Part shown: positions 1 to 13,997 of the stretch, piece by piece | Position numbering within the stretch: position 1 is the stretch's first letter | How the letters are laid out: every line of letters starts with the position of its first letter | Made by a program: the position numbers and the translations under genes | Assembly: GCA_029975625.1 (NCBI GenBank) | Contig: JARKOR010000262.1 | Span: forward strand, 1 to 13,997 | Direction: 5' to 3' | DNA length: 13,997 nt | From: Nanosynbacter sp. | Lineage (GTDB): Bacteria; Patescibacteriota; Saccharimonadia; Saccharimonadales; Saccharimonadaceae | The notes under the pieces: model-generated | Seen by the model: the letters and a program-made list of their open reading frames with translations, nothing else | Databases searched by the model: none | Told to the model about the DNA's origin: nothing

Positions 1-80
1 ACCCGAAATGAAACTTACTCAAAGTATTCTTCGCCTCGGACTTGTGCATTGTTCGATATATAATAAAAGAGGTTGCACGA

Positions 81-117
81 AAAACAAAAGGCCTTACGTT
101 CGGTGACGTAAGGCCTT
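81..117 (-). terminator. Rho-independent terminator
   Basis: A perfect inverted repeat has left arm 88-99 and right arm 106-117 (AAGGCCTTACG/CGTAAGGCCTT core) around a 6-base loop. Read on the minus strand it is followed directly by a T-rich run (TTTGTTTT, complement of 81-87). This is the classic intrinsic terminator layout for leftward transcription. It lies just downstream of the tRNA-like 3' end at 127-142, so it is probably the original terminator of a minus-strand tRNA gene. On the plus strand the stem is followed only by TTGATTTT, a weaker tail. Confidence 0.75.
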
Positions 118-126
118 GATTTTACA

Positions 127-142
127 TGGTGCCAGGGACGAG
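127..142 (-). other. Putative att site: tRNA 3'-end fragment
   Basis: On the minus strand this reads CTCGTCCCTGGCACCA. That fits a 7-base acceptor strand (CCCTGGC), a discriminator A and an encoded CCA, with part of a T-stem before it. No T-loop consensus (TTCRANY), anticodon arm or 5' half is found to the right, so it is not an intact tRNA. A terminator lies where a tRNA terminator belongs. Tyrosine integrases commonly target tRNA 3' ends and rebuild the tRNA at one end, leaving a short copy at the other. The integrase at the right end of the window fits this. The match is short, so it could be chance. Confidence 0.4.
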
Positions 143-316
143 TTACAACTATTAGTGTAACTTGCTGATATTTAATAATAATTACAGGTTGTATTTTGCT
201 TAAGGCCCCTAAAAAGGCCCCCATAGCCCATTGCAAATCTGGTTGGATAGTTTTTCTAAGAGCAGTTTCAGTACGCCGCCAGGTCAACTTTAAAAAAGTC
301 ACCTCTTTGCCGCCAA

Positions 317-358
317 TCCACTAATTCCGCAAAAATCAGAAAGTGCGGAGTTAGTGGA
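317..358. repeat. 15-bp inverted repeat, one mismatch
   Basis: TCCACTAATTCCGCA (317-331) is repeated inverted as TGCGGAGTTAGTGGA (344-358), with a single mismatch and a 12-base spacer. No T-run follows, so a terminator is unlikely. The length and symmetry fit a recombinase or transposase end-binding site or a stable RNA hairpin. I cannot assign it to a known element. Confidence 0.6.
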
Positions 359-415
359 CAATCTCCTTGCTTTCAAGATAGCCCCGCTTTGTCTCTGCGT
401 GAAATGAAGACAATT

Positions 416-482
416 AATTGCACCAGGAATTGCCACGGACAATTATCGGGGCAATTATCGCTGAATTGCTCCAGAAATTGCC
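416..482. repeat. Nested direct repeats (AATTGC / CAATTATCG)
   Basis: AATTGCACCAGGAATTGCC (416-434) recurs as AATTGCTCCAGAAATTGCC (464-482), 19 bases with two differences. Between the copies CAATTATCG occurs twice (440-448 and 452-460), 12 bases apart. The motif AATTG(C/T) is therefore reused many times in under 100 bases. This could be protein-binding arm sites, for example for an excisionase or integrase, or decayed low-complexity sequence. Confidence 0.5.
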
Positions 483-551
483 CACAATGTCAATTCCGGA
501 TCAATCCTTCACCCGTGAATGCCATAAAGCCCCGGCCAGGCGGCATGAACA

Positions 552-592
552 CCATACCAGGTATGGAATTGAGCCTGTGGCAGTGCTGCCAC
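552..592. promoter_or_regulatory. Two perfect palindromes, possible operators
   Basis: CCATACC-A-GGTATGG (552-566) and GTGGCAG-TG-CTGCCAC (577-592) are both perfect dyads with 7-base arms and centres of one and two bases. They are separated by only 10 bases and lie upstream of the R-M operon. Dimeric repressors commonly bind dyads of this size. No adjacent controller (C protein) gene is seen, so the cognate regulator is unknown. Hairpins in a leader RNA are an alternative. Confidence 0.35.
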
Positions 593-696
593 CGCCTTTA
601 ATTTGTGGACGCGGTCTGCTAAAGAACTGGAAAAACCGCAAAAAATCTGATATGTTCCAACGGTTTCTAACCAATGCTGCACACCGCAATAATCGC

Positions 697-727
697 TTGA
701 CAATAAGAGGCTGTTGGCGGACATTGT
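697..727 (+). promoter_or_regulatory. Weak candidate promoter for the operon
   Basis: A perfect -35 hexamer TTGACA sits at 697-702. No good -10 follows at the ideal distance: GACATT (720-725, 17-base spacer) or CATTGT (722-727) are poor matches to TATAAT. It precedes the Abi fragment and hsdM, with no better promoter seen nearby. Confidence 0.22.
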
Positions 728-736
728 AAGCAACAC

Positions 737-780
737 ACCCGCCACGCCTCTCAACGATGCGCACCCCGGCGGGTATTTTT
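737..780 (+). promoter_or_regulatory. Hairpin overlapping the Abi ribosome site
   Basis: ACCCGCC (737-743) can pair with GGCGGGT (768-774), and ATTTTT (775-780) leads straight into the ATG at 781. The right arm is the only G-rich stretch that could act as a ribosome-binding site, so pairing would hide it. With the T-run it also looks like a weak terminator/attenuator, although the 24-base loop is long for one. Confidence 0.25.
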
Positions 781-996
781 ATGTCCGATGTACAGAAGCA
801 GATCTATTGCAAACCAGCCCTCACTCTTGACGATCAGATCGACCTGCCGACAGCAAGGGGACTTACCGTTCCAGATCGTGACAAAGCCCGCCACTACCTC
901 CGATATGTCGGATACTATCGTCTCTCCGGTTATTTCCTCACCCTCCAGCAACGCGGCAGCGACGTTCAGTCGCACACCAAAGGGACTTTACATTAA
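781..996 (+). pseudogene. Truncated Abi_2 family (AbiD/F-like) gene
   Basis: The 71-residue frame reads like the N-terminus of Abi_2 (PF07751-type) abortive infection proteins: KPALTLDDQIDLPTARGL, then the hallmark block HYLRYVGYYRLSGYFLTLQQ, then SHT..G. Full-length members are about 300 residues, so only roughly the first quarter is present. The frame ends at a TAA that overlaps the hsdM start (TAATG). I chose ATG 781 because the sequence becomes family-like right after it; ATG 757 in the same frame is an alternative. The lost C-terminal part means an intact Abi function is unlikely. The fragment may persist as a leader for translational coupling to hsdM, or as a scar of recombination between defence genes. 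A real short gene cannot be excluded. Confidence 0.6.
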
Positions 997-3317
997 TGGA
1001 CCAATCTCAACTGAATACAATAACCAACTTTATCTGGAACATCGCAGACGATGTGCTGCGCGATATTTATGTACGCGGAAAGTACCGAGATGTAATTCTG
1101 CCAATGACGGTGTTGCGCCGCCTTGATGCTGTCCTCGAACCCACCAAACAAGCGGTGCTGGACATGAAGGCTGCCCTTGACAGAGAAGGGATTGCCAACC
1201 AGGACGATGCCTTGCGGTCCGCTTCGGGCGAGGCTTTTTATAATACTTCACCGTTTCTCCTGCGGGATCTGAAGTCGCGGGCCACCCAGCAGAAGCTCCG
1301 CGACGATTTTGAGGCGTACCTGGATGGTTTTTCACCTAATGTACAGGATATTCTGACCAACTTCGAATTCCGCCATCAAATCCCCCGCCTATCGAAGGCA
1401 GGTGTACTCGGCGATTTGATCGAGAAGTTTCTCGACAAAGACATCAACCTCAGTCCAAATCCGACGTCGACGCAGCCAGGTCTCGATAATCATTCCATGG
1501 GGACAATCTTTGAGGAATTGGTGCTTCGTTTCAACGAAGCGAACAACCAGGAGGCAGGTGAGCACTGGACCCCACGCGATGCAGTCAAACTGATGGCAAG
1601 TCTCATGTTCCTGCCAGTGGCCAACAAGATCGAATCCGGTACCTACCTGCTTTATGACTGTGCCTGCGGAACCGGTGGCATGCTCACCGTTGCCGAGGAA
1701 ACTTTGCAGAAAATTGCCGCTGAACACGGCAAGCAGATTGCCACCCATCTATACGGTCAGGAGATCAACGGCGAAACCTACGCCATCTGCAAGGCCGACC
1801 TGCTCCTCAAGGGGGACGGCGATGCTGCTGACAACATCGTCGGTGGCCCGGCTCATTCTACCCTTTCCGCCGATGCCTTCCGCTCCCGTGAGTTTGATTT
1901 TATGCTGGCCAACCCTCCATACGGCAAGAGCTGGAAAACCGACCTTGAGCGGATGGGTGGCAAGAAGGAACTGAAGGACCCGCGTTTCATCATTCAGCAC
2001 GGCGGCGATCCCGAGTATTCACTGGTTACCCGTTCCAGCGACGGACAGATGATGTTCCTGGCCAACATGCTGAGCAAGATGAAGCACGATACCCCGCTCG
2101 GCAGCCGGATCGCCGAAGTACATAACGGCTCGTCCCTCTTCACCGGCGATGCCGGCCAGGGGGAAAGCAATATACGGCGCTGGATCATCGAGAACGACTG
2201 GTTGGAGGCCATTGTAGCCCTGCCGCTGAACATGTTCTACAACACCGGCATCGCCACTTATGTCTGGGTTCTCAGCAATCGCAAACCCGAGGCGCGCCGG
2301 GGCAAGGTGCAACTCATCGATGCCACCCAGTGGTTCGAACCGCTGCGCAAGAACATGGGTAAAAAGAACTGCCGACTCTCCGACCAGGATATTCAGCGTA
2401 TTTGCGACACCTTTCTCGCTTTCGAAGAGACGGAGCAATCCAAGATCTTCCCCAATGCGGTGTTCGGCTACTGGAAGGTCAAGGTCGAGCGTCCCTTGCG
2501 CCTGCACAGCCAGCTTACCTGGAAGGCCATCGAAACCCTGCGGTTCGCCTCGGGCGACGAAGAGATTCGCAGCTCGTTGTACGACACTTTGGGCGACGAT
2601 CTGTTCGAGAAACCGGAATCCGTGCGCGCGGAGCTGGAGAGACTCGTCAACGACTGGGGCAAAGGTGACGACGAGGAGGATGGCGAAGAGAACAGCGGCA
2701 GCAAGAAAGGACTTTCCGACAAAAAAAAGAAGAAGCTCCTCAACGAAGCCACCTGGAAACGGGACGCCATGCTGGTCGATGTGGCCACCAAACTCCGCCA
2801 TGAGTTGGGAGACGGACTGTTTGATGACCACAACCGCTTCCGGGAACAGGTAGACGCCACCCTAAAGAAGCTCGCCATAAAGATCAGCGCCGCCGAGTTG
2901 AAGCTGATCTTCAACGCCGTCAGCTGGCGGGTAGAGGAAGCTCCCCGGGTTATCGGCAAGGTTCACAAGCCGGGAAAGGTACTTGCCGATCCACTGCATG
3001 GTTTCTTTGAAGCGGTAATTAATGGTAAAACGAGCATAGTTGAATACGAAGCAGACACGGAACTGCGGGATTCCGAGCAGGTGCCGCTTCTGGAAGAAGG
3101 GGGAATCGAAGCATTCTTCCGCCGGGAAGTGCTTCCCTACACTCCTGATGCCTGGATCGACTCCGACGCCACCAAGATTGGCTACGAAATCAGCTTCACC
3201 CGCTATTTTTACAAACCTCCGGTGCTGCGCACCCTGGATCAAATCAGCGCGGACATCCGTGCCCTGGAAGAGGAAACGGAAGGTCTGCTCGACGAGATCA
3301 TGGGAGGAACGTCATGA
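996..3317 (+). CDS. hsdM: Type I R-M DNA methyltransferase subunit HsdM
   Basis: This 773-residue protein is the N6-adenine methylase subunit of a type I system and should work as M2S (methylase) or with HsdR as R2M2S. The HsdM_N helical region is at about 5-150 (FIWNIADDVLRD, VILPMTVLRRLDAVLE). The N6_Mtase core follows: EHWTPRDAVKLM (189-200), the SAM-binding motif DCACGTGG (221-228) and the catalytic NPPY (306-309). It is longer than the usual ~500 residues. The C-terminal ~270 residues include a strongly charged, low-complexity linker (about 555-580, acidic then KKKKK) and a tail, also found in long HsdM proteins, that ends in a coiled-coil-like helix. AAAGGGA (979-985) is a plausible ribosome site 10 bases before the ATG, which overlaps the Abi stop. 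The next gene starts within its stop codon (ATGA). The genetic target sequence cannot be read from this subunit. Confidence 0.96.
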   Translation: MDQSQLNTITNFIWNIADDVLRDIYVRGKYRDVILPMTVLRRLDAVLEPTKQAVLDMKAALDREGIANQDDALRSASGEAFYNTSPFLLRDLKSRATQQKLRDDFEAYLDGFSPNVQDILTNFEFRHQIPRLSKAGVLGDLIEKFLDKDINLSPNPTSTQPGLDNHSMGTIFEELVLRFNEANNQEAGEHWTPRDAVKLMASLMFLPVANKIESGTYLLYDCACGTGGMLTVAEETLQKIAAEHGKQIATHLYGQEINGETYAICKADLLLKGDGDAADNIVGGPAHSTLSADAFRSREFDFMLANPPYGKSWKTDLERMGGKKELKDPRFIIQHGGDPEYSLVTRSSDGQMMFLANMLSKMKHDTPLGSRIAEVHNGSSLFTGDAGQGESNIRRWIIENDWLEAIVALPLNMFYNTGIATYVWVLSNRKPEARRGKVQLIDATQWFEPLRKNMGKKNCRLSDQDIQRICDTFLAFEETEQSKIFPNAVFGYWKVKVERPLRLHSQLTWKAIETLRFASGDEEIRSSLYDTLGDDLFEKPESVRAELERLVNDWGKGDDEEDGEENSGSKKGLSDKKKKKLLNEATWKRDAMLVDVATKLRHELGDGLFDDHNRFREQVDATLKKLAIKISAAELKLIFNAVSWRVEEAPRVIGKVHKPGKVLADPLHGFFEAVINGKTSIVEYEADTELRDSEQVPLLEEGGIEAFFRREVLPYTPDAWIDSDATKIGYEISFTRYFYKPPVLRTLDQISADIRALEEETEGLLDEIMGGTS

Positions 3318-3961
3318 GCAGTCGAGCGAAAAAGCCGGTGATCTTTGTCTCCTCGACAGTGTACGGCATCGAAGAACTACTAGAGCGAATCTATACCCTA
3401 TTGACGACATTCGGCTACGAAGTATGGATGTCCCACAAGGGGACGGTGCCTGTCCGGTCCGACCGTACTGCCTTTGAAAATTGTCTCGCCGGAGTTGACG
3501 ACTGTGAACTTTTTCTCGGAATCATTACCCCCTCCTACGGCAGCGGCAAGGATGGCGATGAGCTTTCCATAACCCACCAGGAACTTCAAAAAGCCATTGC
3601 ATTGAATAAGCCCCGCTGGCTCCTTACCCACACCGATGTGGTCTTTGCCCGACGTTTGCTGCGTGATCTGGGTAAGGGCACGCCGGAAGAACGTAATCAG
3701 CTGAAATTGAAAAAAGACGCCGCATCAATTTCCGACCTGCGGGTCATAGATATGTACGAGGAAGCGATTCGTCACGACGAGCCGCTATCGGAACGTAACG
3801 GGAACTGGGCACAGCCATTCAGTGCCGATGAGGACGTGCTCCGCTTTGTTTCGGCCCAGTTTTCCCGATTTCAGGAGGTGGAGCGGTTTATTACGGAAAA
3901 TCTCTCTGATCCGGCTGGTGTTTTAACCAGCATTAAAGGAAAGCGGGGAGGTAAGCCATGA
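3314..3961 (+). CDS. DUF4062 (TIR-like fold) protein
   Basis: This 215-residue protein opens with a DUF4062 domain: IFVSSTVYGIEELLERIYTL (10-30), GYEVWMSHKGTVPV (34-47), then CELFLGIITPSYGS (64-77) and SITHQELQKAI (85-95). DUF4062 is related to TIR/nucleoside-deoxyribosyltransferase-like folds. The Glu at 90 sits where TIR-type NADases carry their catalytic Glu, but I cannot confirm activity. The C-terminal half (about 110-215) is less typical and ends in a charged helix. It overlaps hsdM and the next gene by ATGA and has a strong GGGAGG ribosome site at 3302-3307, six bases from the ATG. DUF4062 genes between hsdM and hsdS recur in type I loci. Its role is unknown; sensing, signalling or an NAD-directed effector are all possible. 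Confidence 0.8.
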   Translation: MSSRAKKPVIFVSSTVYGIEELLERIYTLLTTFGYEVWMSHKGTVPVRSDRTAFENCLAGVDDCELFLGIITPSYGSGKDGDELSITHQELQKAIALNKPRWLLTHTDVVFARRLLRDLGKGTPEERNQLKLKKDAASISDLRVIDMYEEAIRHDEPLSERNGNWAQPFSADEDVLRFVSAQFSRFQEVERFITENLSDPAGVLTSIKGKRGGKP

Positions 3962-5391
3962 ACCGTGAAGAGTTGCAGCGTTTTCTATCTTTGGGTGAGG
4001 GGCAGAGCCTGGAATTCAAAACCGGAGTCAATCCGGCGGCAATCGGGAAAGTGATCTGCGCCTTTCTCAACTCCGGTGGCGGCTACCTGGTCGTCGGCAT
4101 TGCAGACAAGGGTGAGGTCGTTGGGGTTCCAGCCGATCAGGATATCAAGCGACTGGAGCAAACCGTCACGGTAGGGCTGGTCCCTGGCGCGCTGGTCTCC
4201 TTTGAAGAGCAAATATTGGAAAGCAAGCCGGTCTGGGTAATCGAAGTTCCCTCAGGCCGGGACATCCCCTACAGTTTCAGGAATGAGATCTTTGTCCGTG
4301 AAGGTGAACGGACCGGTCGGGCCGATGTGGAAACTATTAGGGACATGGTCATGCGACGCCAAGTGGAGCCGGAGCGCTGGGAACGTCGTTTTTCCGATGC
4401 CAACCCGGATCGTGACCTTGATCGGGAAGAGATTGCCGCCACTGCCCGTCAGGCTGCCGCGGCGCATCGCGGGGGCTTGGTGGCCGAAAGCCCGAAGAAT
4501 CTCCTCGAGCGTCTGGGACTGCTGAAATATGGCCGGCTTACCAACGGCGGCGACGTGCTCTTTGCCGTAAACCCTGCCGTCCGCCACCCGCAGGTACGGG
4601 TGCGGGCCGTGTGCTACCCGGGCGACAAAAGCGACGAAACCTACCGCGACCACAAAAATTTTGAAGGCCCGCTCGTTCAAGTGCTGGAACAGGCATTTGT
4701 CTTCATTCAGCGCAACACGCCGAGCCGCAGTCGGTTTCGACCGGCAAAATTGGAGCGGGAAGAGCAAAGCCTTTATCCCCCCGAGGCGATTCGCGAAGGC
4801 CTGGTCAATGCCTTTGCCCATCGCGACTATGCCGACTTCCGGGGCGGCATTGCCGTGCACATTTACCCCAACCGTCTGGAAATATGGAATTCGGGAACCT
4901 TTCTCGATGGAATTTCGCCGGAAAATCTGGCCACGGGACACATCTCCGTTCTGCGTAATCCCGACATTGCCCATGTGCTCTACCTGCGCGGCATGATGGA
5001 GAAGTTGGGACGGGGCTGCGTCATGATCCGCAGGTCGTGCGAGGAGCAGGGACTGCGCCCCCCTGAATGGCGCTCCGATGCCACCGGCGTCACCCTGACC
5101 TTCTTTGCCATGGAAGTCACCACGGAAGTCGCCATGGATGTCACCATGGATGTCACCATGGAAGTCAGAACAGTTTTGCAGGCTCTCACCGGGACAATGA
5201 CGCGCCAGGAGTTACAGGACAAACTCGGTCTCAAGAATGCGGACCATTTCCGCAAGCATTACTTGGCGCCGGCTGTGGATGGCGGTTTCGTGGCCATGAC
5301 CATTCCTGGCAAGCCCAAGAGCCGAATGCAGCGCTACCAGGTGACGGAGAAGGGACGGCGGGCGCTAGCTGGTGAGGTAGAAAATACATGA
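3958..5391 (+). CDS. AlbA_2 / HATPase-like ATP-binding protein
   Basis: This 477-residue protein starts with an AlbA_2 (Schlafen-like) domain at about 12-115 (GQSLEFKTG 15-23; FLNSGGGYLVVGIADKG 36-52). A HATPase_c_4-type GHKL ATP-binding domain follows at about 270-385, with REGLVNAFAHRDY (279-291, N-box Asn 284), IWNSGTF (309-315) and KLGRG (349-353). After a repetitive linker (385-404) comes a winged-helix-like C-terminus (about 405-470) of the kind found in Fic-like and transcriptional regulator proteins. The family is usually labelled 'putative transcriptional regulator' or 'ATP-binding protein' and often sits inside type I R-M operons. AlbA_2 domains bind nucleic acid and in Schlafens can cleave RNA; I see no proof of catalysis here. 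It overlaps the DUF4062 gene by ATGA and has GGAGG at 3947-3951. Regulation of the operon or an RNA-directed effector role are the main options. Confidence 0.87.
   Translation: MNREELQRFLSLGEGQSLEFKTGVNPAAIGKVICAFLNSGGGYLVVGIADKGEVVGVPADQDIKRLEQTVTVGLVPGALVSFEEQILESKPVWVIEVPSGRDIPYSFRNEIFVREGERTGRADVETIRDMVMRRQVEPERWERRFSDANPDRDLDREEIAATARQAAAAHRGGLVAESPKNLLERLGLLKYGRLTNGGDVLFAVNPAVRHPQVRVRAVCYPGDKSDETYRDHKNFEGPLVQVLEQAFVFIQRNTPSRSRFRPAKLEREEQSLYPPEAIREGLVNAFAHRDYADFRGGIAVHIYPNRLEIWNSGTFLDGISPENLATGHISVLRNPDIAHVLYLRGMMEKLGRGCVMIRRSCEEQGLRPPEWRSDATGVTLTFFAMEVTTEVAMDVTMDVTMEVRTVLQALTGTMTRQELQDKLGLKNADHFRKHYLAPAVDGGFVAMTIPGKPKSRMQRYQVTEKGRRALAGEVENT
5110..5169 (+). repeat. 12-bp in-frame minisatellite, five units
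   Basis: Five tandem 12-base units, consensus ATGGA(A/T)GTCACC, occur at 5110-5121, 5122-5133, 5134-5145, 5146-5157 and 5158-5169. Units three and four are identical. They encode a four-residue repeat (MEVT/TEVA/MDVT/MDVT/MEVR, residues 385-404) linking the ATPase-like domain to the winged helix. Unit gain or loss keeps the frame and would only change linker length. Confidence 0.85.
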
Positions 5392-5425
5392 TTGCCGAGG
5401 ACAATCCTGGCTGTCCGCAATATTT
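5392..5425 (+). terminator. Intra-operon hairpin, weak terminator or attenuator
   Basis: TTGC (5392-5395) plus GGACA (5399-5403) can pair with TGTCC (5412-5416) plus GCAA (5417-5420), leaving a 3-base bulge and an 8-base loop. TATTTTA follows. It starts right after the stop codon of the AlbA_2 gene and fills most of the only sizeable gap (66 bases) in the operon. It may reduce expression of the downstream genes or mark an insertion junction. Confidence 0.35.
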
Positions 5426-5457
5426 TAGCTAATCATATTTGATATTGGGGGAATGCA

Positions 5458-6498
5458 ATGAGTAAACGAGAGGAATTGCTTTCATCAATTGCAGATATAA
5501 TTAAAGACTATCGGGCAGGTGAAATACCTAAACCTACACCACAACATGTGGAACGATGGGTATGTCAATTTAGCGATTCGGCTCAGCTTTCGTTGCTAGC
5601 GGAAATGGAACACCTTTTAAAGATCACATACTTTACAAAAAAAACGATAGGAGAATTCTTTGGCAACCAGATTAAGCATAAAAAAATTGCCGGGGAAAAT
5701 TATATATCTTACTGGAAGAGTGCCAACTTGTTAGATATTCAGGAACACGGGCACAGCCAGAGTGAGATACTCGAACTATTTGACAAAAGCCTAGAAGAGC
5801 AGTGTGGGTACGGTGTTGAGGATTGTGGAAGTAAAAGCGGTGAATTTATTTATGTTGACGATGTGCTCTTTAGTGGAGGTCGTATTGGTACTGACCTCAA
5901 GACTTGGATAAATGACGAGGCACCAAAAGAAGCAAAAGTTCATATTCTTGTCATCGGTGCGCATCGCTTGGGCGAGTGGCAATGTGTTGAGGGACTAAAA
6001 AAAGCTGCCAAAGAGGCCGGTAAAGACATAGCATTTGAAAGTTGGGCAGCAATTCGCTTTGAAAATCGCAAGTACTATAAGAATATCTCGGAAGTGCTGT
6101 GGCCCGCCGTGTTACCGGACAATGCAGAATTGGTGGCATATATGGCACAGGAAAAGAGATTCCCATTTGAGCCTCGCATGCCCGGCGGCAAACTGGCGCA
6201 TGATATATTTACGGGTGAAGAGGGCCGACAGCTACTCGAAAGGGAAATGCTACTGGCTGGTATTCATATTCGCTCAAAATGCAAAGAACCTAAACCGTCA
6301 ATGCGCCCGTTGGGTTTTAGCCCATTTGGGCTTGGTTTCGGGGCAACCATTGTGACATTCCGTAATTGCCCGAATAACTGCCCATTGGCACTTTGGTGGG
6401 GCGACCCTGAAGTAACCTCGGGGGCATTTCACTGGTATCCACTCTTGCCAAGAAAAACGTATGAGCAGTCTTTCGACTTCTCAGCATTCGGTTTTTAA
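5458..6498 (+). CDS. Phosphoribosyltransferase-like conflict-system protein
   Basis: This 346-residue protein has a type I PRTase PRPP-binding loop, FIYVDDVLFSGGRIGTDL (130-147), with the paired Asp 134/135 and the small Ser-Gly-Gly loop typical of enzymes that bind PRPP. The following strand VHILVIGAHR (161-170) fits the same Rossmann-like fold. The C-terminus carries a distinctive block, FRNCPNNCPLALWWGD (301-316) and WYPLLPR (326-332), which I associate with the PRTase-CE group found in bacterial conflict loci and not with purine/pyrimidine salvage enzymes. The N-terminal ~120 residues are helical and not recognised. A GGGGGA ribosome site (5447-5452) supports the start. Its stop codon directly abuts the NADAR-HsdS start, implying coupled synthesis. 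The gene is visibly more A+T-rich than hsdM and hsdR. Substrate is unknown; transfer of phosphoribose to a base or nucleic acid, or PRPP sensing, are inferences. Confidence 0.75.
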   Translation: MSKREELLSSIADIIKDYRAGEIPKPTPQHVERWVCQFSDSAQLSLLAEMEHLLKITYFTKKTIGEFFGNQIKHKKIAGENYISYWKSANLLDIQEHGHSQSEILELFDKSLEEQCGYGVEDCGSKSGEFIYVDDVLFSGGRIGTDLKTWINDEAPKEAKVHILVIGAHRLGEWQCVEGLKKAAKEAGKDIAFESWAAIRFENRKYYKNISEVLWPAVLPDNAELVAYMAQEKRFPFEPRMPGGKLAHDIFTGEEGRQLLEREMLLAGIHIRSKCKEPKPSMRPLGFSPFGLGFGATIVTFRNCPNNCPLALWWGDPEVTSGAFHWYPLLPRKTYEQSFDFSAFGF

Positions 6499-8565
6499 AT
6501 GAGTAATCAATCGCAAGTTCGTACATATCTGAGAAAAGACTCTGCCGTGTTTCGGAAGACATCTGAAGCCTTCGGTGGTCTTTCTAATATGGCACCAGGT
6601 TATCCCATCCGGATCAATGGAGTTCTTTACCACACGTCGGAAGCACTCTATCAAGCTTGCCGGTTCCCGCACAGACCAGAAGTTCAAAAGCTAATCGTCG
6701 GCCAACATAGCCCAATGACCGCAAAGATGAAAAGCAAACCATACCGCAAAGATTCACGGCCAGATTGGGAACTGGTCCGTGTAAAAATTATGCGATGGTG
6801 TCTTCAGGTTAAGCTTGCACAAAATTGGGAAAAATTTAGTCGGTTACTTCTCTCAACAGGTGATAGACCTATTGTCGAAGATTCACGTAAGGATGACTTT
6901 TGGGGGGCAAAAGAGAAAGACGAAAAGACGTTGGCTGGTATGAATGTCTTGGGCCGTTTATTGATGGAGTTAAGAGAATTTATCAAGCAAGGCAAAGAAC
7001 TAAAAATTGTAGAACCACCAAATATTCCAAGTTTTCTTCTCTTCGGTGAACCTGCTGCTACAATCGAATGCCGACATGTCCGCTACGGACAACCATGTAT
7101 TGAGACAACACTTGCATTGCAACCACAAAAGAGCAACATGCCTCTCTTTGATTTCATAGAATCACTTCCGATAGATTACAGCGCCCAAGATGAACTCGCT
7201 ACAAGAGTTGAAAAGCATACTTTAATTTCCGAGTTGCAGCAGTTTGAAGAGTATAAGGAGTCGGGGCAGGAGTGGCTCGGACTACTGCCGAGACATTGGT
7301 CTGTGCTTCCGAATCGTGCTTTGTTCAATGAAGTCAATGATAGGAATCATCCCGATGAAGAGATGCTTTCGGTGACAATCACGCGAGGCATTGTCAGACA
7401 GTCGACACTTTTAGCAAACACATCCAAGAAAGACAGCTCAAACAGTAATAAGTCGGCCTACAAGCTTGTCCAACCTAACGACATTGCGTATAACAAAATG
7501 CGTGCCTGGCAAGGTGCGCTTGGCGCTTCAACATTGCGAGGCATCATCAGCCCGGCCTATGTGGTAATACGCCCGAGGACAACTGCAAGCACATGGTACT
7601 ATCACCATCTCTACCGCACTCCGGCATTTGCTAAGGAAGCGGAGCGATGGTCATACGGCATTACTTCCGACATGTGGAGCCTTCGACCTGAGCATTTCAA
7701 ACTGATTTATTCCCCGTCCCCCCCTCCCGATGAACAAGCCGCCATCGTCCGCTTTCTTGATCATGCCAACCGGAAGATTGACCGTTTCATCCGCTCCAAG
7801 CGAAAGATGATTGCGCTGTTGAACGAGCAGAAACAGGCCATCATACACCACGGAATTGACCAAGGCATAAATGGTGAATGTGGCTGTTTCCCGATGCGTG
7901 CAGTTCTAAGGCCGGTAAAACGGTTTGGCTATGCCGATAAAGTACTGCTTTCTTTATTTCGTGACTATGGCGTCATCCCAAAAGATTCACGCGAAAACAA
8001 AAACGTTGATGTGCGTGACCTTGATCTTTGCCAACTTGTCCTGCCAGGTGATGTAGTGATGAATAAGATGAAAGCTTGGCAAGGCTCAATCGCGGTGAGC
8101 GATCTGGAAGGGATAGTCAGCCCAGATTACATGGTGCTTGAGTTTATTCGTGACGGAATAGATCGTAAATTTTTTCACTACTTACTGCGTTCGCCAGATA
8201 TGGTGACTCAATATCGAAGGAATGCATATGGTGTCCGGCCAGGGCAGTGGCGATTGATGTATCCAGAATTTTGCCGTCTTCATGTGCATATCCCTTCGGT
8301 TGAAGAACAGGAAAGGATTGTTAAGCAAATAGAAGACGCGACATCTACTCTTAACAAAGGCATCACCCGAACCGAGCGGGAAATCGCCCTGATGCAGGAA
8401 TTCCGTACCCGCCTGACTGCGGACGTCGTCACCGGAAAACTGGACGTGCGGGCGGCGGCGGCGAAGCTGCCGGAGCTGGAGGAGCGCGGCGTCCCGGAGG
8501 ACGAAGGCGAGGAGCCTGACGACGAACTGCTGGCGGAAAACGACGCGGAGGAAAGCGATGAGTAA
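6499..8565 (+). CDS. hsdS: NADAR domain fused to HsdS specificity subunit
   Basis: One uninterrupted 688-residue frame joins two families. Residues about 8-190 form a NADAR (YbiA-like) domain: FGGLSNMAPG (25-34), TSEALYQACRFPH (46-58, with the conserved Glu 48), MTAKMKSKPYR (73-83), VEDSRKDDFWGAK (126-138) and GMNVLGRLLMELRE (147-160). NADAR proteins cleave N-glycosidic bonds of riboflavin intermediates or remove ADP-ribose from guanine. From about 252 the protein is HsdS: YKESGQEWLGLLPRHW, TRD1 (about 265-410), a spacer helix (PPDEQAAIVRFLD and on, 409-455), TRD2 (about 465-600), a second conserved helix (EEQERIVKQIE) and an acidic tail (660-688). There is no Shine-Dalgarno; the ATG follows the PRTase stop directly, so translation is probably by reinitiation. 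An internal start at Met 214 lacks a good ribosome site, making a separate HsdS unlikely. Composition becomes GC-rich again from about 8340. Confidence 0.9.
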   Translation: MSNQSQVRTYLRKDSAVFRKTSEAFGGLSNMAPGYPIRINGVLYHTSEALYQACRFPHRPEVQKLIVGQHSPMTAKMKSKPYRKDSRPDWELVRVKIMRWCLQVKLAQNWEKFSRLLLSTGDRPIVEDSRKDDFWGAKEKDEKTLAGMNVLGRLLMELREFIKQGKELKIVEPPNIPSFLLFGEPAATIECRHVRYGQPCIETTLALQPQKSNMPLFDFIESLPIDYSAQDELATRVEKHTLISELQQFEEYKESGQEWLGLLPRHWSVLPNRALFNEVNDRNHPDEEMLSVTITRGIVRQSTLLANTSKKDSSNSNKSAYKLVQPNDIAYNKMRAWQGALGASTLRGIISPAYVVIRPRTTASTWYYHHLYRTPAFAKEAERWSYGITSDMWSLRPEHFKLIYSPSPPPDEQAAIVRFLDHANRKIDRFIRSKRKMIALLNEQKQAIIHHGIDQGINGECGCFPMRAVLRPVKRFGYADKVLLSLFRDYGVIPKDSRENKNVDVRDLDLCQLVLPGDVVMNKMKAWQGSIAVSDLEGIVSPDYMVLEFIRDGIDRKFFHYLLRSPDMVTQYRRNAYGVRPGQWRLMYPEFCRLHVHIPSVEEQERIVKQIEDATSTLNKGITRTEREIALMQEFRTRLTADVVTGKLDVRAAAAKLPELEERGVPEDEGEEPDDELLAENDAEESDE

Positions 8566-11500
8566 CCGGCCCCCCATACCGATAGACGTTCAACGCGATT
8601 TGCTCTTCGAATGCCGTTACCGTTGCGCGTGCTGTTGTGAGCCGGTTTCTCTGGAAAAATGCCACATTGATCCGTGGTCAAAGACGGCGGAACACTGCTT
8701 TGAAAATCTGGTAGTACTGTGCAGTAACTGCCATACCCGCTCCCATGCCGATAAATGGCCTGCATCCACGATGCGGCGCTTCAAACAGGAGCCGTGCGCC
8801 TTACAACGGGACCGGACACCGCCGGTATCCGCCGAACAGAAGGCGATGATCGACCTGATTGCTGCCGCGCATCCTGATTCGATGAATGAGCGTGGGCGCG
8901 CCCGCCTGGTGCGGATGGTCGCCGCCTATGCCAATGTGGCGATTGCCGATATTAGCGTCGAAGCCGTCGCGCCGACCAACAGCTCCCTCATCCGTCTGTC
9001 GATGCCGCGATCCGCCGCCGAGCGGATCATTCTCGGCTTCGAGTCTCAAGACCCCCGTCTTGCTTCCTTTCTCGACGACTTCGCAATCCCGACGGTTGAA
9101 GCTGTTACCAAACGACTTCTTACTGGGGGTAATTTCGACCCATTCGGACCTGAAGGCGGGATCAAGCTGATCGAAACCGCTAGGCCGACACCGGCGGAGC
9201 GGCCGCCGGTGACCAACGTCAAGGAAGAGGGTCTGGAAAGCCTGATCTTCAATGCCATGACCAACTTCGGCTGGCTGGCGGGGGAGAACAGGTGTTACGA
9301 CAAAGAGTACGCCGTCGATCTGGCCCAATTGACCGCCTTCCTGGAGGCGACCCAGGAGGACACCGCCGCTGCCCTGCAGTTGCGAACCGATGGGCCGGTA
9401 CGACGCAAGTTTCTGGCCCGACTGCAGGGAGAGATAACCCGGCGCGGCACCATCGACGTGCTGCGCAAGGGGATAGAGCACGAGAAATACCACGTTGATC
9501 TCTTCTACGGTACCCCGTCGCCGGAAAACCGTAAAGCGGTAGCCCGCCATGCTGAAAACCGGTTCAGCATCACCCGGCAGCTGCGCTACAGCCGGGAAGA
9601 GTCCAGAAACGCCCTCGACCTTGCCCTGTTCATCAACGGTCTGCCCATTGCCACCTTTGAGCTAAAAAACAGCCTGACCAAGCAGACGGTGGAGGATGCG
9701 GTGGAGCAGTACAAGCGGGACCGCGATCCGCGGGAACCGCTCTTTCTGTTCGGCCGCTGCGTGGTTCACTTCGCCTTGGACGATCACGAAGTCCGGATGT
9801 GCACGGAGCTGAAAGGGGCAAAAGGTATGGCCAAGGATTCCTGGTTTCTCCCCTTCAACCAGGGGTGGAACTTCGGCGCGGGCAATCCCCCTAATCCCTA
9901 CGGCATCAAGTCCGACTACCTCTGGCGGCGGATTCTCACACCCGGAGGCTTGACCGACATTCTGGAAAATTACGCCCAGGTCGTGGAGGTGAAGAACGAG
10001 AAGACCGGCAAAAAGAAGCGGGTACAGGTTTTCCCCCGCTACCATCAACTGGACGTGGTTCGCAAGCTCCTGGCCGATGCGGCGTGGTACGGCGTGGGGA
10101 AACGCTACCTGATCCAGCACTCCGCTGGCAGCGGCAAGTCCAACTCCATCGCCTGGCTTGCCCACCAGTTGATCGGCCTGCGCAAGGACAACGCCGAGCT
10201 GTTCGACTCAATTGTCGTCATCACCGACCGGCGGGTGCTCGACAAGCAACTGCGGGAAACCATCAAGGGGTTTGCCCAGGTGAACTCCATCATTGGCGCA
10301 GTGAAGGAGGGGGATAACCTCTCCAAGACCCAGCAATTGGCGAAATTTCTCAAGGTCGGCAAGAAAATAATCATCTCCACGGTGCAGACTTTCCCGTTTG
10401 TGCTCGATACCATCGGCGCCGAACACCGGGGGATGCGATTCGCCATCATCATCGACGAAGCCCATTCCAGTCAGGGTGGACGTACCGCCGGCAAGATGAA
10501 CATGGCCCTGGCGGAAGACATGGAGGAGTTCGCCGAGGAGGGGACCGATCTGGAGGACCGGATTAACAGGATCATCTCTTCCCGGAAGATGCTGACCAAT
10601 GCCAGCTACTTTGCTTTCACCGCCACTCCAAAGAACAAGACCCTGGAGATCTTCGGAATTCCCTGTCAAGCCGGCGATGAGGTGAAACACCGCCCCTTCC
10701 ACAGCTACACCATGAAACAGGCGATTCAAGAGGGGTTCATCCTCGACGTCCTGAAATACTACACCCCGGTAGAGAGCTATTACCGCCTAGCCAAGACCAT
10801 CAAGGGGGATCCGGAGTATGACGTAAAGAAGGCGAGAAAGAAGTTGCGCCGGTATGTGGAGTCCCACCAGAAGGCGATCCGGGACAAGGCGGAGATCATG
10901 GTCGATCATTTCCTGGAGCAGGTGATCGGCCAGAACAAGATCGGCGGCCAGGCCCGAGCCATGGTGGTGACCGGCAGTATCCAGCGGGCCATTCAATACT
11001 TCCATGCCTTCCGGGATTACCTTGCAGAGATAAAGAGCCCCTTCCAGGCAATAGTCGCGTTTTCCGGCGAACCGGAATTCAAGGGGGAAAAGGTTAGTGA
11101 GGCCAAACTGAACGGCTTCCCCAGCGGCCTGATCGAGGACAAGATTCAGGAAGACCCGTACCGGTTCCTCATCTGCGCCGAGAAGTTCCAGACCGGGTAC
11201 GATGAGCCGCTGCTCCATACCATGTACGTTGACAAGCAGCTCTCCGGCATCAAGGCGGTTCAGACCCTGTCTCGCCTCAATCGCGCCCACCCGAAAAAGC
11301 ACGACGTGTTCGTTCTCGATTTCCAGAACAACACCGGAACCATCGAACACGCTTTTGCCGACTATTATCGGACCACGATTCTCAGCAAGGAGACGGATGC
11401 CAACAAGCTGCACACCCTGAAGGCGGAACTCGACGCCTATCAGGTCTACTCACCGGAGCAGGTCGAATCCCTGGTCACTCTCTACCTGGACGGCGCCGAC

Positions 11501-12172
11501 CGTGACCGGCTCGATCCGATCCTTGACGCCTGTGTGGCGATGTACGTAGAGGAATTGGACGAGGATGGTCAGGTGGACTTCAAGGGAAAAGCCAAGGCGT
11601 TCACCCGCACCTACGATTTCCTGGCAACTATTCTTCCCTACGGTGTGCCGGCCTGGGAGAAGCTTTCCATTTTCCTCAACTTCCTGATTCCGAAGCTCCC
11701 GGCTCCGAAGGAAGAGGACCTGGCCAGAGGGATTCTGGAAGCCATCGACATGGATAGCTACCGGGCCGAAAAGAAGGCAACCATGACAATAGCGTTGCCG
11801 GACGCCGATGCGGAAATAGAGCCGGTCCCAACCTCCGGTGGTGGCCGTAAGTCGGAGCCGGAGATGGACAGACTCTCCAACATAATCAAGGCTTTTAATG
11901 AGCAGTTCGGTTCACTATTTGCCGACACGATACGGATGGAAAAACGAATAACCGAAGAGATACCAGGCAAGGTGTCTGCTGATCAGGCATACCAGAATGC
12001 CAGGAAAAATTCAGATCGGCAGAATGCCCGGATCGAGCACGACAAGGCGTTGAAGCGGGTCATCACGGCACTTTTTAACGACGACGCGCAACTTTTCAAA
12101 CAGTTCCAGGATAATGACTCATTCCGGAAGTGGTTGACGGATACTGTTTTCGGGCTGACGTACACAGAGTAA
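8558..12172 (+). CDS. hsdR: HsdR restriction subunit with N-terminal HNH domain
   Basis: This 1204-residue protein is the type I motor/nuclease subunit with about 217 extra residues in front. Residues 10-67 form an HNH nuclease: zinc-type pairs C23/C26 and C55/C58, ECHI-like KCHIDPW (34-40, His 36), Asn 50 in ENLVVLC, and CHTRSH (58-63, His 59). Residues about 90-185 are a small alpha/beta module (SLIRLSMP, AAERIILGFESQDPRLASF). From about 220 the usual HsdR begins (EGLESLIFNAM, GWLAGENRCYD). The PD-(D/E)XK site is Asp 354 with ELK (368-370). Helicase motifs are Walker A HSAGSGKS (521-528), DEAH (633-636), FTATP (687-691), EKFQTGYDEP (875-884) and QTLSRLNR (902-909). The C-terminal helical part (about 1100-1204) should dock onto HsdM/HsdS. 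GGAGG at 8547-8551, six bases before the ATG, fixes the start; it overlaps hsdS by eight bases (ATGAGTAA). Two nuclease domains in one R subunit is unusual. Confidence 0.95.
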   Translation: MSNRPPIPIDVQRDLLFECRYRCACCCEPVSLEKCHIDPWSKTAEHCFENLVVLCSNCHTRSHADKWPASTMRRFKQEPCALQRDRTPPVSAEQKAMIDLIAAAHPDSMNERGRARLVRMVAAYANVAIADISVEAVAPTNSSLIRLSMPRSAAERIILGFESQDPRLASFLDDFAIPTVEAVTKRLLTGGNFDPFGPEGGIKLIETARPTPAERPPVTNVKEEGLESLIFNAMTNFGWLAGENRCYDKEYAVDLAQLTAFLEATQEDTAAALQLRTDGPVRRKFLARLQGEITRRGTIDVLRKGIEHEKYHVDLFYGTPSPENRKAVARHAENRFSITRQLRYSREESRNALDLALFINGLPIATFELKNSLTKQTVEDAVEQYKRDRDPREPLFLFGRCVVHFALDDHEVRMCTELKGAKGMAKDSWFLPFNQGWNFGAGNPPNPYGIKSDYLWRRILTPGGLTDILENYAQVVEVKNEKTGKKKRVQVFPRYHQLDVVRKLLADAAWYGVGKRYLIQHSAGSGKSNSIAWLAHQLIGLRKDNAELFDSIVVITDRRVLDKQLRETIKGFAQVNSIIGAVKEGDNLSKTQQLAKFLKVGKKIIISTVQTFPFVLDTIGAEHRGMRFAIIIDEAHSSQGGRTAGKMNMALAEDMEEFAEEGTDLEDRINRIISSRKMLTNASYFAFTATPKNKTLEIFGIPCQAGDEVKHRPFHSYTMKQAIQEGFILDVLKYYTPVESYYRLAKTIKGDPEYDVKKARKKLRRYVESHQKAIRDKAEIMVDHFLEQVIGQNKIGGQARAMVVTGSIQRAIQYFHAFRDYLAEIKSPFQAIVAFSGEPEFKGEKVSEAKLNGFPSGLIEDKIQEDPYRFLICAEKFQTGYDEPLLHTMYVDKQLSGIKAVQTLSRLNRAHPKKHDVFVLDFQNNTGTIEHAFADYYRTTILSKETDANKLHTLKAELDAYQVYSPEQVESLVTLYLDGADRDRLDPILDACVAMYVEELDEDGQVDFKGKAKAFTRTYDFLATILPYGVPAWEKLSIFLNFLIPKLPAPKEEDLARGILEAIDMDSYRAEKKATMTIALPDADAEIEPVPTSGGGRKSEPEMDRLSNIIKAFNEQFGSLFADTIRMEKRITEEIPGKVSADQAYQNARKNSDRQNARIEHDKALKRVITALFNDDAQLFKQFQDNDSFRKWLTDTVFGLTYTE

Positions 12173-13028
12173 GATCTGAGAGTACTCTGAGGATGAGGAA
12201 GATGCCGACAAGGTCCGGCGCCATGAGCAGACCCTTGGTGCGGACCATTTCTTGAGTCGTTAGAAACAACTCTCATGCGGAAAGTAAAGCTAAAGAATGC
12301 TGCGTGGGAGAAGAATCCTTCATACAAATAAATCGGTATGGTGGCACTGTATTTTTGTTTTTTCTCGGTCTACAGGATATCCTCCTCTCAAACAGCAGCG
12401 GACTTGGCTTTAAAGCAGGAAGCCCAAACTCATCACCCATTTCAATATCCATGAGCGCCTTACCAACACCGAGTTCTGCAGGCACTTTGAGGGGAGCCGA
12501 AATTCTGCAACAAAGGTGCTGAGACATCGGTGTGACGAAGGGTTCCTGAATTCCAGTCGGACAACGGAAAGGAGCGCATTACACTCCAGGTCCAGACTTG
12601 AGCCGTCTGCTTGCGGCGTGAGAAGATGTTATGCGCCTTATAAATAGACTTATGCGCGCTCATAACATTTTCCTGCGCTATTTCGAAAGTTGTAGAAATT
12701 TAAATTAGCCGAATGGGTAAGAGAGAATCTACCTGATATGGTTGTTCTTCTTGAACTGCCCGTCTTCGCGCCGCTTTAGATTGCCTACGATCAGCTTGAG
12801 CTGCCGTGGCCGATGATCATTGACCACCGCGAGAAGTCACCTTCCCGATTCGCCCCCAGATTTTTCAGCGTGGGACTGTTCGCCGCTGCTACCCTTTGCA
12901 ATGCGTGCCGGTCTGGGTAGGGCCTGGACAGATTCACCATCGTGGTCGGCTCTGCTGGGCCAGTCCGTGTGTCTCAAGGAGACGAAGCGTCACGGTACGC
13001 TTTATATGGGTGGAATGTACCAAAACCA
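12173..13028. other. Gene-poor flank with coding remnants
   Basis: No convincing intact gene is seen in these ~856 bases. A 10-base palindrome (AGAGTACTCT, 12179-12188) follows hsdR but lacks a T-run, so no clear operon terminator is present. Short stretches look protein-like yet are bounded by stops. One is a plus-strand tail at 12180-12263 (EYSEDEEDADKVRRHEQ…LSR). Another is a minus-strand tail at about 12729-12837 (RQLKLIVGNLKRREDGQ…HIR). A third is a minus-strand open frame at 12273-12527 (PAELGVGKALMDIEMGDEFG…) with no motif I know. They suggest decayed gene ends from past rearrangements. A TTATGCGC repeat cluster lies at 12629-12666. Confidence 0.45.
12629..12666. repeat. TTATGCGC repeat cluster, dif-like core
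   Basis: TTATGCGC occurs at 12629-12636 and again at 12650-12657 in direct orientation, and GCGCTCATAA (12656-12665) is a near-inverted copy. On the minus strand 12660-12633 reads AGCGCGCATAA, then a 6-base spacer GTCTAT, then TTATAAGGCGC. The first arm matches the E. coli dif XerC arm at 9 of 11 positions. The second matches the XerD arm only at TTAT. It could be a degenerate Xer-type or integrase core/arm site. Confidence 0.45.
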
Positions 13029-13652
13029 TTAGAAATCGTCAATAGGGTCGCATTCCAGCCGTCCAATCTTCACCTCAAGCCTCCGGATCTTGTTCTTGGC
13101 CTTTTTCAGTTCAGTTTCGGTCGATTCCGCGCGACGCGCCTTTTCCTCCAACCCTGCCTTCATCTTCTCAAGCTCGCTGCGTTCCTTTTGCTGCGCATAC
13201 GCAATCTTCTCCAGATATTCCATTCGGGATATGGAATCTTGTCTCAACTTGGCGGCTTCAGCCAGTCTGCGCTGTGCCTCGTCATCCCGCCGCTCCGCTT
13301 CCGTAGCTAATTTTGCCGCATCCTTCACGGCCTTCTTTGATGCCACATCAATCGCCAGTATCCGTCGAGCCTGGTCACCAGCGAAGAAACCCGACACACA
13401 ACCGAGCAGGATACCTATCATTACGTAAGGCCATGCCGCAAATACTCCGGACCATCCCCGTTCAAGAAAATCGATCGACCTGAATCCAACCAGTTTGAAA
13501 TGTTCATGATATGCGAGAAGATAACCGCTTTGCTGGAGGGGCTCAGTGGTTCTGGCGAAATGGACAATTGCCAGGTTGGGCAGTATCCACCAGTTGAGTA
13601 GGGCGAACAGGATAAGAACGAGAATGACCACCGCAATCCTTGCTTTATTCAT
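13029..13652 (-). CDS. Two-TM coiled-coil membrane protein, unknown function
   Basis: This 207-residue protein is not recognised as a named family. It has an N-terminal membrane helix (about 5-28, preceded by MNKAR), a ~45-residue loop, a second membrane helix (about 72-92, WPYVMIGILLGCVSGFF) and then about 110 residues of charged heptad-like helix (about 100-200, rich in Ala/Glu/Lys/Arg) ending ECDPIDDF. The short positive N-terminus and two helices predict the coiled coil on the cytoplasmic side. Its ATG overlaps the integrase stop (ATGA on the minus strand), and GGAGG lies at 13667-13663, ten bases upstream. It is therefore coupled to the integrase and likely belongs to the mobile element. 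A role in exclusion, in anchoring a complex or in conjugation-like functions is possible but unsupported. Confidence 0.75.
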   Translation of the reverse strand: MNKARIAVVILVLILFALLNWWILPNLAIVHFARTTEPLQQSGYLLAYHEHFKLVGFRSIDFLERGWSGVFAAWPYVMIGILLGCVSGFFAGDQARRILAIDVASKKAVKDAAKLATEAERRDDEAQRRLAEAAKLRQDSISRMEYLEKIAYAQQKERSELEKMKAGLEEKARRAESTETELKKAKNKIRRLEVKIGRLECDPIDDF

Positions 13653-13997
13653 CTGAGATACGCCTCCGTCGTGTCCTTGTCGAAGTGGCCCACTTCCTGG
13701 GCAACGATCCCTTTTGCCTCCTCGTAATTGATCCCCCGCAGCTGCAGCTCCTCCATCCGCTCCTGGGCATAGCTGTGCCGGAGACCGTGCGCACCGTTGG
13801 AAAAGGAAAGCTCCCGCTGGCTCGCCGCGGTAAAGCTCTGGCTCCAGGCCTGGCCGCCGGCCAGGTCATAATGCTGGGTGTAATGCACCTCCCTGTCGGT
13901 TACCTCTCGCGGCTCATCCAGCCGGGTCGCCTCCAGCTGCTGCGCCAGCTCCCTCGACAGCAGGACCTCCCGCACCAGGCCCCCTTTCCCTTCCACC
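13649..13997 (-). CDS. Tyrosine recombinase/integrase, C-terminal part
   Basis: The visible 115 residues are the end of the catalytic domain of a phage-type tyrosine integrase; the gene continues beyond the right edge, so the first visible codon (GTG) is not its start. Seen residues are the beta-hairpin Lys in GKGG (visible residue 4), the HxxR box HGLRHSYAQER (70-80; His 70, Arg 73), the GHF histidine (104) and the nucleophile Tyr 113 in DTTEAYLR. The first catalytic Arg lies outside the window. The wording of the HGLRHSYAQER…VGHF block recalls the Integrase_1 type group. It is transcribed leftward and overlaps the membrane-protein gene by ATGA. With the tRNA-like fragment at the left edge it suggests the whole segment is an integrated island. 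Confidence 0.88.
   Translation of the reverse strand, partial: VEGKGGLVREVLLSRELAQQLEATRLDEPREVTDREVHYTQHYDLAGGQAWSQSFTAASQRELSFSNGAHGLRHSYAQERMEELQLRGINYEEAKGIVAQEVGHFDKDTTEAYLR

Follow-up and report, generated by a model that had tools for sequence, protein, structure and literature searches.

A DS-32-type PRTase–NADAR pair within a type I restriction-modification operon, with NADAR as the N-terminal part of the HsdS subunit

In DarT1–NADAR systems, a member of the NADAR family hydrolyses guanine-linked ADP-ribose (PMC11543638). A pair consisting of a phosphoribosyltransferase-like protein (PRTase) and a NADAR protein is also already known as an anti-phage pair, and NCBI curated models cover it under the name DS-32, which apparently goes back, via the common DS numbering, to the DefensePredictor series (PMC13092281); in the available part of its main text, 'DS-32' and 'HsdS' are absent, NADAR occurs once, and phosphoribosyltransferase occurs once, as an abbreviation in the legend of Fig. 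4. Other described systems bearing on the present case are the DUF499 BREX-related Hma (HmaA–HmaB–HmaC; PMC8565338, PMC12839542) and two toxin-type systems nested in type I restriction-modification (R-M) loci, PrrC in ecoprrI (PMC12707154) and DarTG2 in a type I locus of enteropathogenic Escherichia coli (PMC12255303). Here we describe a stretch of 13,997 nt (the window; Nanosynbacter sp., assembly GCA_029975625.1, contig JARKOR010000262.1, positions 1–13,997, forward strand), in which, by the same curated models, a PRTase and a NADAR form such a DS-32 pair, and in which the NADAR is the N-terminal part of HsdS, the specificity (S) subunit of a type I R-M system. The PRTase reaches 406.6 bits with DS32_1 (NF053875; cut-off 250) and the NADAR 284.6 bits with DS32_2 (NF053876; cut-off 240; residues 8–185), and the two stand in the order of DS-32, PRTase then NADAR, directly adjacent.

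A preliminary description of this DNA, made from its letters and open reading frames (ORFs), had proposed a NADAR domain with a conserved Glu and the motifs DDFWGAK and NVLGRLLM, fused to an HsdS with two target recognition domains (TRDs), and each of these features was borne out. The ORF runs uninterrupted from the ATG at 6499 to the stop codon at 8565 (688 aa), and its first part matches the Pfam NADAR profile significantly at residues 18–162 (E 3.6e-27; 96 bits against a cut-off of 35.1). The two HsdS halves are recovered by PADLOC specificity models, PDLC03105 with its best stretch at residues 245–458 (whole-protein E 1e-78) and PDLC03174 at residues 469–676 (E 3.5e-70); the Pfam Methylase_S match expected in the preliminary description lies just above its cut-off (22.9 versus 22 bits) and covers the second half alone. 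Relatives of the fusion protein among solved structures are YbiA (2b3w, E 8.3e-17), two HsdS proteins (E ~2e-7) and the NADAR 8bau (E 0.0013). A possible internal hsdS start, the ATG at 7138, has no strong ribosome site by eye. A search with residues 1–215 (E ≤ 1e-3) matched 969 proteins of 378–1204 aa; among the 120 that were listed and aligned, 117 show HsdS homology after NADAR, P0018 and P0070 carry DUF1156 instead, and P0078 carries neither. Chance joining or an assembly slip is ruled out by these 117 relatives, and their conserved architecture argues against a frameshift in this contig. Judged from the sequences, the NADAR–HsdS fusion is real and recurrent.

The NADAR part retains the active-site residues. 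E48, R55, K76, W90, R94, E127, D132 and W135, the counterparts of the residues that PMC11543638 gives for ADP-ribose binding and catalysis, are invariant in the 120 relatives aligned with MAFFT. By residue spacing and alignment to 2b3w and 8bau, the YbiA-type set of the P. nicotianae enzyme, E43, K50, E125, D130 and W133, corresponds to E48, R55 (Lys to Arg), E127, D132 and W135. Pairwise mapping finds the active-site set kept in 52/52 HsdS fusions, except D132 (46/52; K in 6), which we take as an alignment shift because D132 is invariant in the MAFFT alignment; among unfused NADARs, R94 is replaced by Q in 1/36. Features of a DarT1-associated antitoxin were not found: the operon holds no darT or other ADP-ribosyltransferase (ART) gene, with no ART match among the nine window proteins scanned with Pfam, and the catalytic residue is E127, not Asp.

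The preliminary description had called for a survey of fused versus split homologues. Using a 17-sequence NADAR alignment (A1), we collected the best 80 of 271 relatives in a genome collection and all 18 relatives in a viral collection; the sample consists of the window's closest relatives, and the counts of fusions among them are not population frequencies. A NADAR ORF was found in 96 of the 98 loci (including the distant NADAR of L115), comprising 52 HsdS fusions, 7 long fusions and 37 others. Within the 80 genome loci, 47 are HsdS fusions, 6 are fusions to a DUF1156 methylase and 27 are neither; HsdS fusions account for 5/16 viral-collection loci. In L042 the NADAR and a DUF1156 methylase are adjacent separate genes, a split version. 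The 47 HsdS-fused genome loci are labelled Pseudomonadota (37), Acidobacteriota (3), Thermodesulfobacteriota (2) and, once each, Verrucomicrobiota, Planctomycetota, Chloroflexota, Melainabacteria and Myxococcota. These eight phylum labels, many of them on metagenome-assembled genomes with binning as labelled, argue against a single recent fusion in one lineage. Near-identical NADARs with the same tail occur in L058 (labelled Chloroflexota) and L062 (labelled Pseudomonadota), reflecting either a recent transfer or misbinning.

The second partner type belongs to a different system. DUF1156 follows the NADAR in all seven long fusions; L050 (Bradyrhizobium) shows the order HmaA (1583 bits), PRTase, NADAR::HmaB (1102 bits) and HmaC (801 bits), a second fusion that was scanned (L087) matches HmaB at 335 bits, and by BLAST clustering the DUF1156-fusion loci contain a relative of the HmaA of L050 in 7/7 cases and of its HmaC in 6/7. 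Two unrelated methylation-based systems host the module, and in both the half attached N-terminally to the specificity or methylase subunit is the NADAR, not the PRTase; no PRTase joined to such a subunit was noticed in the 96 loci, in which no search was aimed at PRTase fusions. In L093, a helix-hairpin-helix domain follows the NADAR.

A PRTase homologue lies directly upstream of the NADAR in 90/96 loci. The six loci without one comprise four that start near a contig end (L025, L026, L090 and L110), one on a large-phage contig (L114) and the distant NADAR of L115. Together with the DS-32 cut-offs, this supports the earlier suggestion that the neighbouring PRTase is a likely functional partner. 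The PRTase of the window contains a PRPP-type loop (PRPP, phosphoribosyl pyrophosphate), YVDDVLFSGG, in which D134, D135 and G140 are invariant across 33 aligned proteins, unfused and Hma-linked ones included, and it matches the PADLOC model PRTase_III-A (E 1.2e-7). In a plasmid collection, 3/3 PRTase records (E 1e-20) also hold a NADAR, and 4/7 NADAR records (E 1e-30), all four from Vibrio, are without a PRTase. Unfused PRTase and NADAR pairs (L130, L131 and L133) have no R-M gene in their annotated surroundings. A distant blastn search of E. coli genomes with the Halomonas pair returned no match.

The fused ORF probably serves as the S subunit of its operon. No second hsdS was found in 52/52 fused loci by BLAST with the HsdS of the window, a search that a very divergent S subunit could escape; with the fused ORF as the sole hsdS match, NADAR would be part of the M2S complex that the operon encodes. 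In 48/52 fused loci the fusion is accompanied by HsdM (upstream), a PRTase and HsdR (downstream), and hsdM and the PRTase gene overlap by exactly 4 bp in 19 loci. Seven hand-picked pairs show NADAR identities of 77–97%, identities of 31–46% in the HsdS remainder and of 37–96% in the first TRD region, which fits the TRD turnover usual for S subunits, with the NADAR kept. On the NADAR tree, a quick tree with 40 of 88 inner branches open, the HsdS label needs seven changes, at least two of them forced by branches starred in the tree. A strict single clade of all HsdS fusions is ruled out (approximately unbiased test, p 7.5e-5); an HsdS clade including the unfused L034 and L035, which was named after the tree had been seen, is not rejected (p 0.10), and one HsdS fusion with later losses is possible. 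One origin of the seven DUF1156 fusions is likewise not rejected (p 0.235). Because of these topology tests, we claim two partner types and not many independent fusions.

The linker after the NADAR carries a further conserved element. In two alignments, of 120 and of 40 sequences, the pair L216–F217 reaches a conservation of at least 90%, mostly as Q-x-[S/A/G]-L-F, and unfused copies often end in QPALF, QPELF, QSELF, QSDMF or QCGLF. The bacterial clamp-binding motif is a C-terminal QL(S/D)LF, described as variable (PMC9690074). Q-x-x-[LM]-F occurs in 35/61 non-redundant linkers of fused proteins (shuffle mean 0.96, maximum 6), where the set is a 60%-identity reduction in which shared ancestry is only partly removed, an ancestry that shuffling does not remove either, and includes at least two proteins without an HsdS fusion (P0018 and P0078). 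Another spelling of the motif is found in 73/116 fused linkers (shuffle mean 0.6; 4/120 not parsed) and in 35/98 short proteins (shuffle mean 0.4; 22/120 not parsed). The pattern Q-x-x-[LMIF]-[FLI] falls within the last 7 residues of 20/37 non-fused NADARs, of 0/90 PRTases and of 4/2037 other six-frame ORFs >150 aa in the same loci; these control ORFs and the shuffles rule out composition as the cause of the motif. By clade, with groups set by eye from the NADAR tree, the same pattern is present in 23/24, 16/16, 6/7 and, in the clade of the window, 1/5 of the HsdS fusions, and in 13/16, 3/4, 6/8 (cyanobacterial) and 2/7 of the unfused groups, which include 35 of the 37 unfused loci; one of the six cyanobacterial positives, L045, has the motif elsewhere in its tail only. 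The cyanobacterial NADARs have ~130–200 extra C-terminal residues, with no further Pfam match in the two scanned (L040 and L064), and five of the eight (L040, L069, L072, L073 and L077) end in or near QLPLI, QLSLI or QLSLL. Vibrio NADARs without a PRTase (L132, L134 and L137) have the C-terminus QLGFF, the NADAR of Vibrio algicola, which has a PRTase, ends in QINMFDV, and the motif is absent from Methylobacterium (TLQLWGIP) and from two phage copies (L135 and L136; no PRTase in the 3.5 kb retrieved). A role of the motif as a PRTase docking site is weakened by the Vibrio QLGFF copies, despite the motif-less phage copies. The three Vibrio NADARs (~44% identity) adjoin a Dam-family methylase. Large-phage NADARs, in which L114 joins L135 and L136, show neither a PRTase in the stretch retrieved nor the tail motif and are possible counter-defence erasers.

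We propose, with a probability of roughly 0.4, that a DS-32-type pair has been built into a type I R-M operon, its NADAR half now forming the N-terminus of the S subunit, and that this NADAR is an eraser carried to host DNA. The PRTase, with PRPP or a related ribosyl donor, would put a ribosyl-type adduct on DNA bases or nucleotides, and this adduct would block replication as the toxic, anti-phage step. NADAR would be the matching eraser, an N-glycosidase removing the adduct as with guanine ADP-ribose in DarT1–NADAR, and its action would be confined to the places to which it is delivered. HsdS, or HmaB in Hma, would take it along the host DNA whose methylation is being maintained, and in many relatives the tail motif would also anchor it to the beta clamp at replication forks of the host. 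Repair would then reach host DNA, but neither phage DNA nor the DNA of a cell in which the R-M complex or the replisome has been taken over. The observed basis consists of the anatomy, the conservation of catalytic residues, the recurrence of the fusions and the motif statistics; from it we infer the substrate, the direction (PRTase toxic, NADAR protective), the targeting, the clamp binding and the trigger. A harmful PRTase and a protective NADAR are assumed because of DarT1–NADAR chemistry and because PRTases act as effectors of type III retrons. The architecture, with DNA-directed parts added to NADAR repeatedly, among relatives and in a second defence system, suggests that NADAR and its protection have to be brought to DNA, perhaps as a safeguard for the genome of the cell itself. 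Among the roles offered in the preliminary description, whose interpretation is partly supported, the comparative evidence favours guarding self DNA against the PRTase. A broader view, in which NADARs of this family are DNA-tethered erasers marking self, through clamp tails at host forks and through HsdS or HmaB fusions on methylation-maintained host DNA, seems rather doubtful to us.

Several points weigh against the proposal of a DNA-delivered eraser. NADAR could degrade soluble molecules instead, and the unfused loci, mostly with unannotated neighbours, could have other DNA-targeting partners or none. R55 occupies the position of the Lys of DarT1-type NADARs, and a K-to-R change in the E. 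coli C7 NADAR retained in vitro activity and lost rescue (PMC11543638). The PRTase profile gave no significant match to solved structures, its two best hits being unrelated (E 0.04 and 0.11), and PyrR matches that profile over the PRPP loop alone (E ~0.5). As for the tail, the Gln is absent from the NMPLF of the window and from 4/5 relatives of its clade, and for this reason clamp binding by the window protein is not claimed; the motif is also found in 0/7 DUF1156/Hma fusions, and 17/37 non-fused NADARs are without it in their last 7 residues.

The main rival gives the PRTase and NADAR the same roles and takes the fusion as sensing whether R-M is intact, not as giving NADAR an address. NADAR on HsdS/HsdM would restrain a PRTase making a toxic product or signal, and a phage anti-restriction protein that takes hold of the S/M subunits would displace or block NADAR and release abortive infection. 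This would resemble prrC, which is embedded in the type IC locus ecoprrI and is switched on once T4 Stp has inhibited the enzyme (PMC12707154), and the window has a candidate effector gene nested in a type I operon, here for a PRTase and not an anticodon nuclease. Type III retrons commonly use PRTases as effectors (PMC12548924), in line with the PADLOC match above, NADAR sits on the subunit that recognises DNA, with which anti-restriction proteins would make contact, and the Hma fusion fits equally well. Nevertheless, we consider such a guard unlikely: 27/80 genome loci have NADAR on neither HsdS nor the DUF1156 methylase, only L076 among these 27 shows HsdM/HsdR-like ORFs (flank length varies and neighbours are mostly unannotated), and the tail motif is left unexplained.

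Alternatively, the fusion could serve co-expression only, fixing the ratio of the pair inside a mobile R-M cassette with no address supplied by HsdS. The translational overlaps among the M, PRTase, NADAR–S and R genes would suit this, as would the slot between hsdM and the PRTase gene, which holds other genes, namely DUF4062 and Schlafen genes in the window and one protein cluster in 18 related loci (GmrSD_N-type in the one member scanned). Two observations make it improbable: in the 96 loci NADAR is the half that is fused, to the specificity subunit in one system and to the methylase in an unrelated one, and the embedded companions are separate genes. Still less probable is a targeted eraser, in which NADAR on HsdS strips phage-made base modifications near the recognition site for HsdR to cut; erasure of phage-made modifications at the target was among the roles offered in the preliminary description. 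The NADAR family does cleave base-linked ribosyl groups, HsdS would supply the address, and the Vibrio copies beside the Dam methylase show that a PRTase is not always needed; yet the PRTase partner in 90/96 loci and the unfused copies, including the three pairs with no annotated R-M gene nearby, would be left without a function, and type I enzymes cleave far from their recognition site. A housekeeping N-glycosidase of riboflavin intermediates joined to hsdS by chance is hardly credible and is ruled out on scores, as TIGR02464 reaches 77.9 bits (cut-off 73.7) and DS32_2 far more, quite apart from the defence-operon context and the PRTase partner.

The window contains a complete type I set, HsdM, HsdS (with specificity halves predicted from sequence) and HsdR, in a plus-strand run of genes, hsdM–DUF4062–Schlafen–PRTase–NADAR::hsdS–hsdR, arranged as one operon (Table 1). 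HsdM matches PADLOC MTase_I (E 2.3e-255) and contains the NPPY motif; the DUF4062 gene overlaps hsdM by 4 bp, the start codon of the fusion (6499) abuts the PRTase stop (6498), and the 3' end of the fusion overlaps hsdR by 8 bp. The DUF4062 protein and the Schlafen–ATPase–winged-helix-type protein (3314–5391) are probably a second embedded effector; a backup effector of similar Schlafen–ATPase architecture has been described (PMC12839542). The HNH-like domain at the HsdR N-terminus (8558–8760; CxxC...H...CxxCH) precedes HSDR_N and scores 18.6 bits, under the Pfam cut-off of 21.4; a motif search was positive in 9/10 related loci with an HsdR >1100 aa, and the tenth (L063) shows the motif by eye. 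Upstream of hsdM, a short ORF (757–996), probably a remnant, resembles the start of an Abi_2-type protein, with no Pfam match at E 0.01. A minus-strand ORF running off the window (13649–13996), without a Pfam match, resembles a tyrosine integrase in its C-terminal part, a hint of a mobile element. A promoter scan gave 3 sites, against 8.1 in shuffles. Among 379 genomes of the window's phylum, the window's own is the only one to reach the DS32_2 cut-off; a further 16 give weaker NADAR matches, one of them (G086) with a divergent unfused PRTase and NADAR pair. The G+C content of the window is 53%, compared with 42–47% in four readable stretches of its genome, and, with the near-absence of the system in the small-genomed relatives of that genome, this points to either a recent acquisition or a misbinned contig.

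Table 1. Coordinates and supporting matches of the features in the window
Feature	Position	Strand	Evidence
HsdM, type I N6-adenine methyltransferase, 773 aa	996..3317	+	Pfam N6_Mtase E 9.5e-52, HsdM_N 5.2e-23
DUF4062 protein, operon accessory gene, 215 aa	3314..3961	+	Pfam DUF4062 E 8.4e-19
Schlafen AlbA_2 / histidine-kinase-type ATPase / winged-helix-type protein, 477 aa	3958..5391	+	Pfam SLFN_AlbA_2, HATPase_c_4, Fic-like_C
PRTase-CE / DS32_1 phosphoribosyltransferase-like partner, 346 aa	5458..6498	+	Pfam PRTase-CE E 1.8e-53
NADAR::HsdS fusion protein, 688 aa	6499..8565	+	single open frame
NADAR domain, DS32_2 family, residues 8-185	6520..7053	+	NCBIfam NF053876
NADAR-HsdS linker, 59 residues	7054..7230	+	no domain match; variable apart from LF pair
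Tail motif N-M-P-L-F, residues 213-217, degenerate Q-x-x-L-F	7135..7149	+	alignments
HsdS specificity subunit, two halves, residues 245-676	7231..8526	+	PADLOC Specificity_I; HsdS structures 5ybb/3okg
HsdR with extra N-terminal HNH-like domain, 1204 aa	8558..12172	+	HSDR_N E 7.5e-20, SWI2_SNF2 E 7.3e-24

If the proposal of a carried eraser holds, R-M would serve as the carrier of a second, chemically different immune system, and a recurring rule would emerge, by which one and the same eraser is attached to the specificity subunit of one methylation-based system and to the methylase of another, unrelated one. The proposal would further suggest what a poorly described class of PRTases does and provide mutable handles (E127, the LF motif and a linker cut) on how a base-ribosylating anti-phage enzyme is kept off the cell's own DNA. 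On the broader view of DNA-tethered erasers, neither a sequence nor a methyl mark but the location of the eraser, at the host replisome or methylase, would decide immunity, a location-based rule of self and non-self that would tie restriction-modification and the replication fork to a toxin that ribosylates bases. Beyond the preliminary description, the analysis adds the curated DS-32 models, the recurrence of the fusion, the second methylase partner and the clamp-type motif in most HsdS-fused relatives. A literature search found no description of NADAR fused to HsdS or HmaB, or of a NADAR clamp motif, with preprints and most subscription papers outside its coverage; PMC11543638 mentions HsdS as a strain genotype only, and PMC12839542, with its extensive treatment of Hma-type systems, contains none of NADAR, PRTase and phosphoribosyl in its main text. 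In databases such proteins already go under the names 'NADAR domain-containing' or 'type I restriction enzyme S subunit', so that others may have seen the fusion.

Compared with known systems, the window passes the same cut-offs as the DS-32 pair and keeps its gene order, but in the window NADAR forms the N-terminal part of HsdS and a type I operon surrounds the pair. With type I R-M it shares HsdM, a two-half HsdS and HsdR on one strand; it differs in the NADAR on its S subunit, in the three further genes between hsdM and hsdS and in the HNH-like domain on HsdR. Both the window and DarT1–NADAR (DarTG1) have a NADAR with the ADP-ribose-binding residue set, whereas the partner in the window is a PRTase instead of an ART, the catalytic residue is the YbiA-type Glu (E127) instead of Asp, position 55 is Arg instead of Lys, and the NADAR is fused to HsdS. 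Hma is likened to it through sister loci that hold a PRTase and NADAR, with the NADAR fused to the methylase; its methylase and helicase are unrelated, and the window is of type I. As with PrrC in ecoprrI and DarTG2 in the enteropathogenic E. coli locus, a toxin-type system is nested in a type I locus, but those two nestings consist of separate genes and employ other chemistry.

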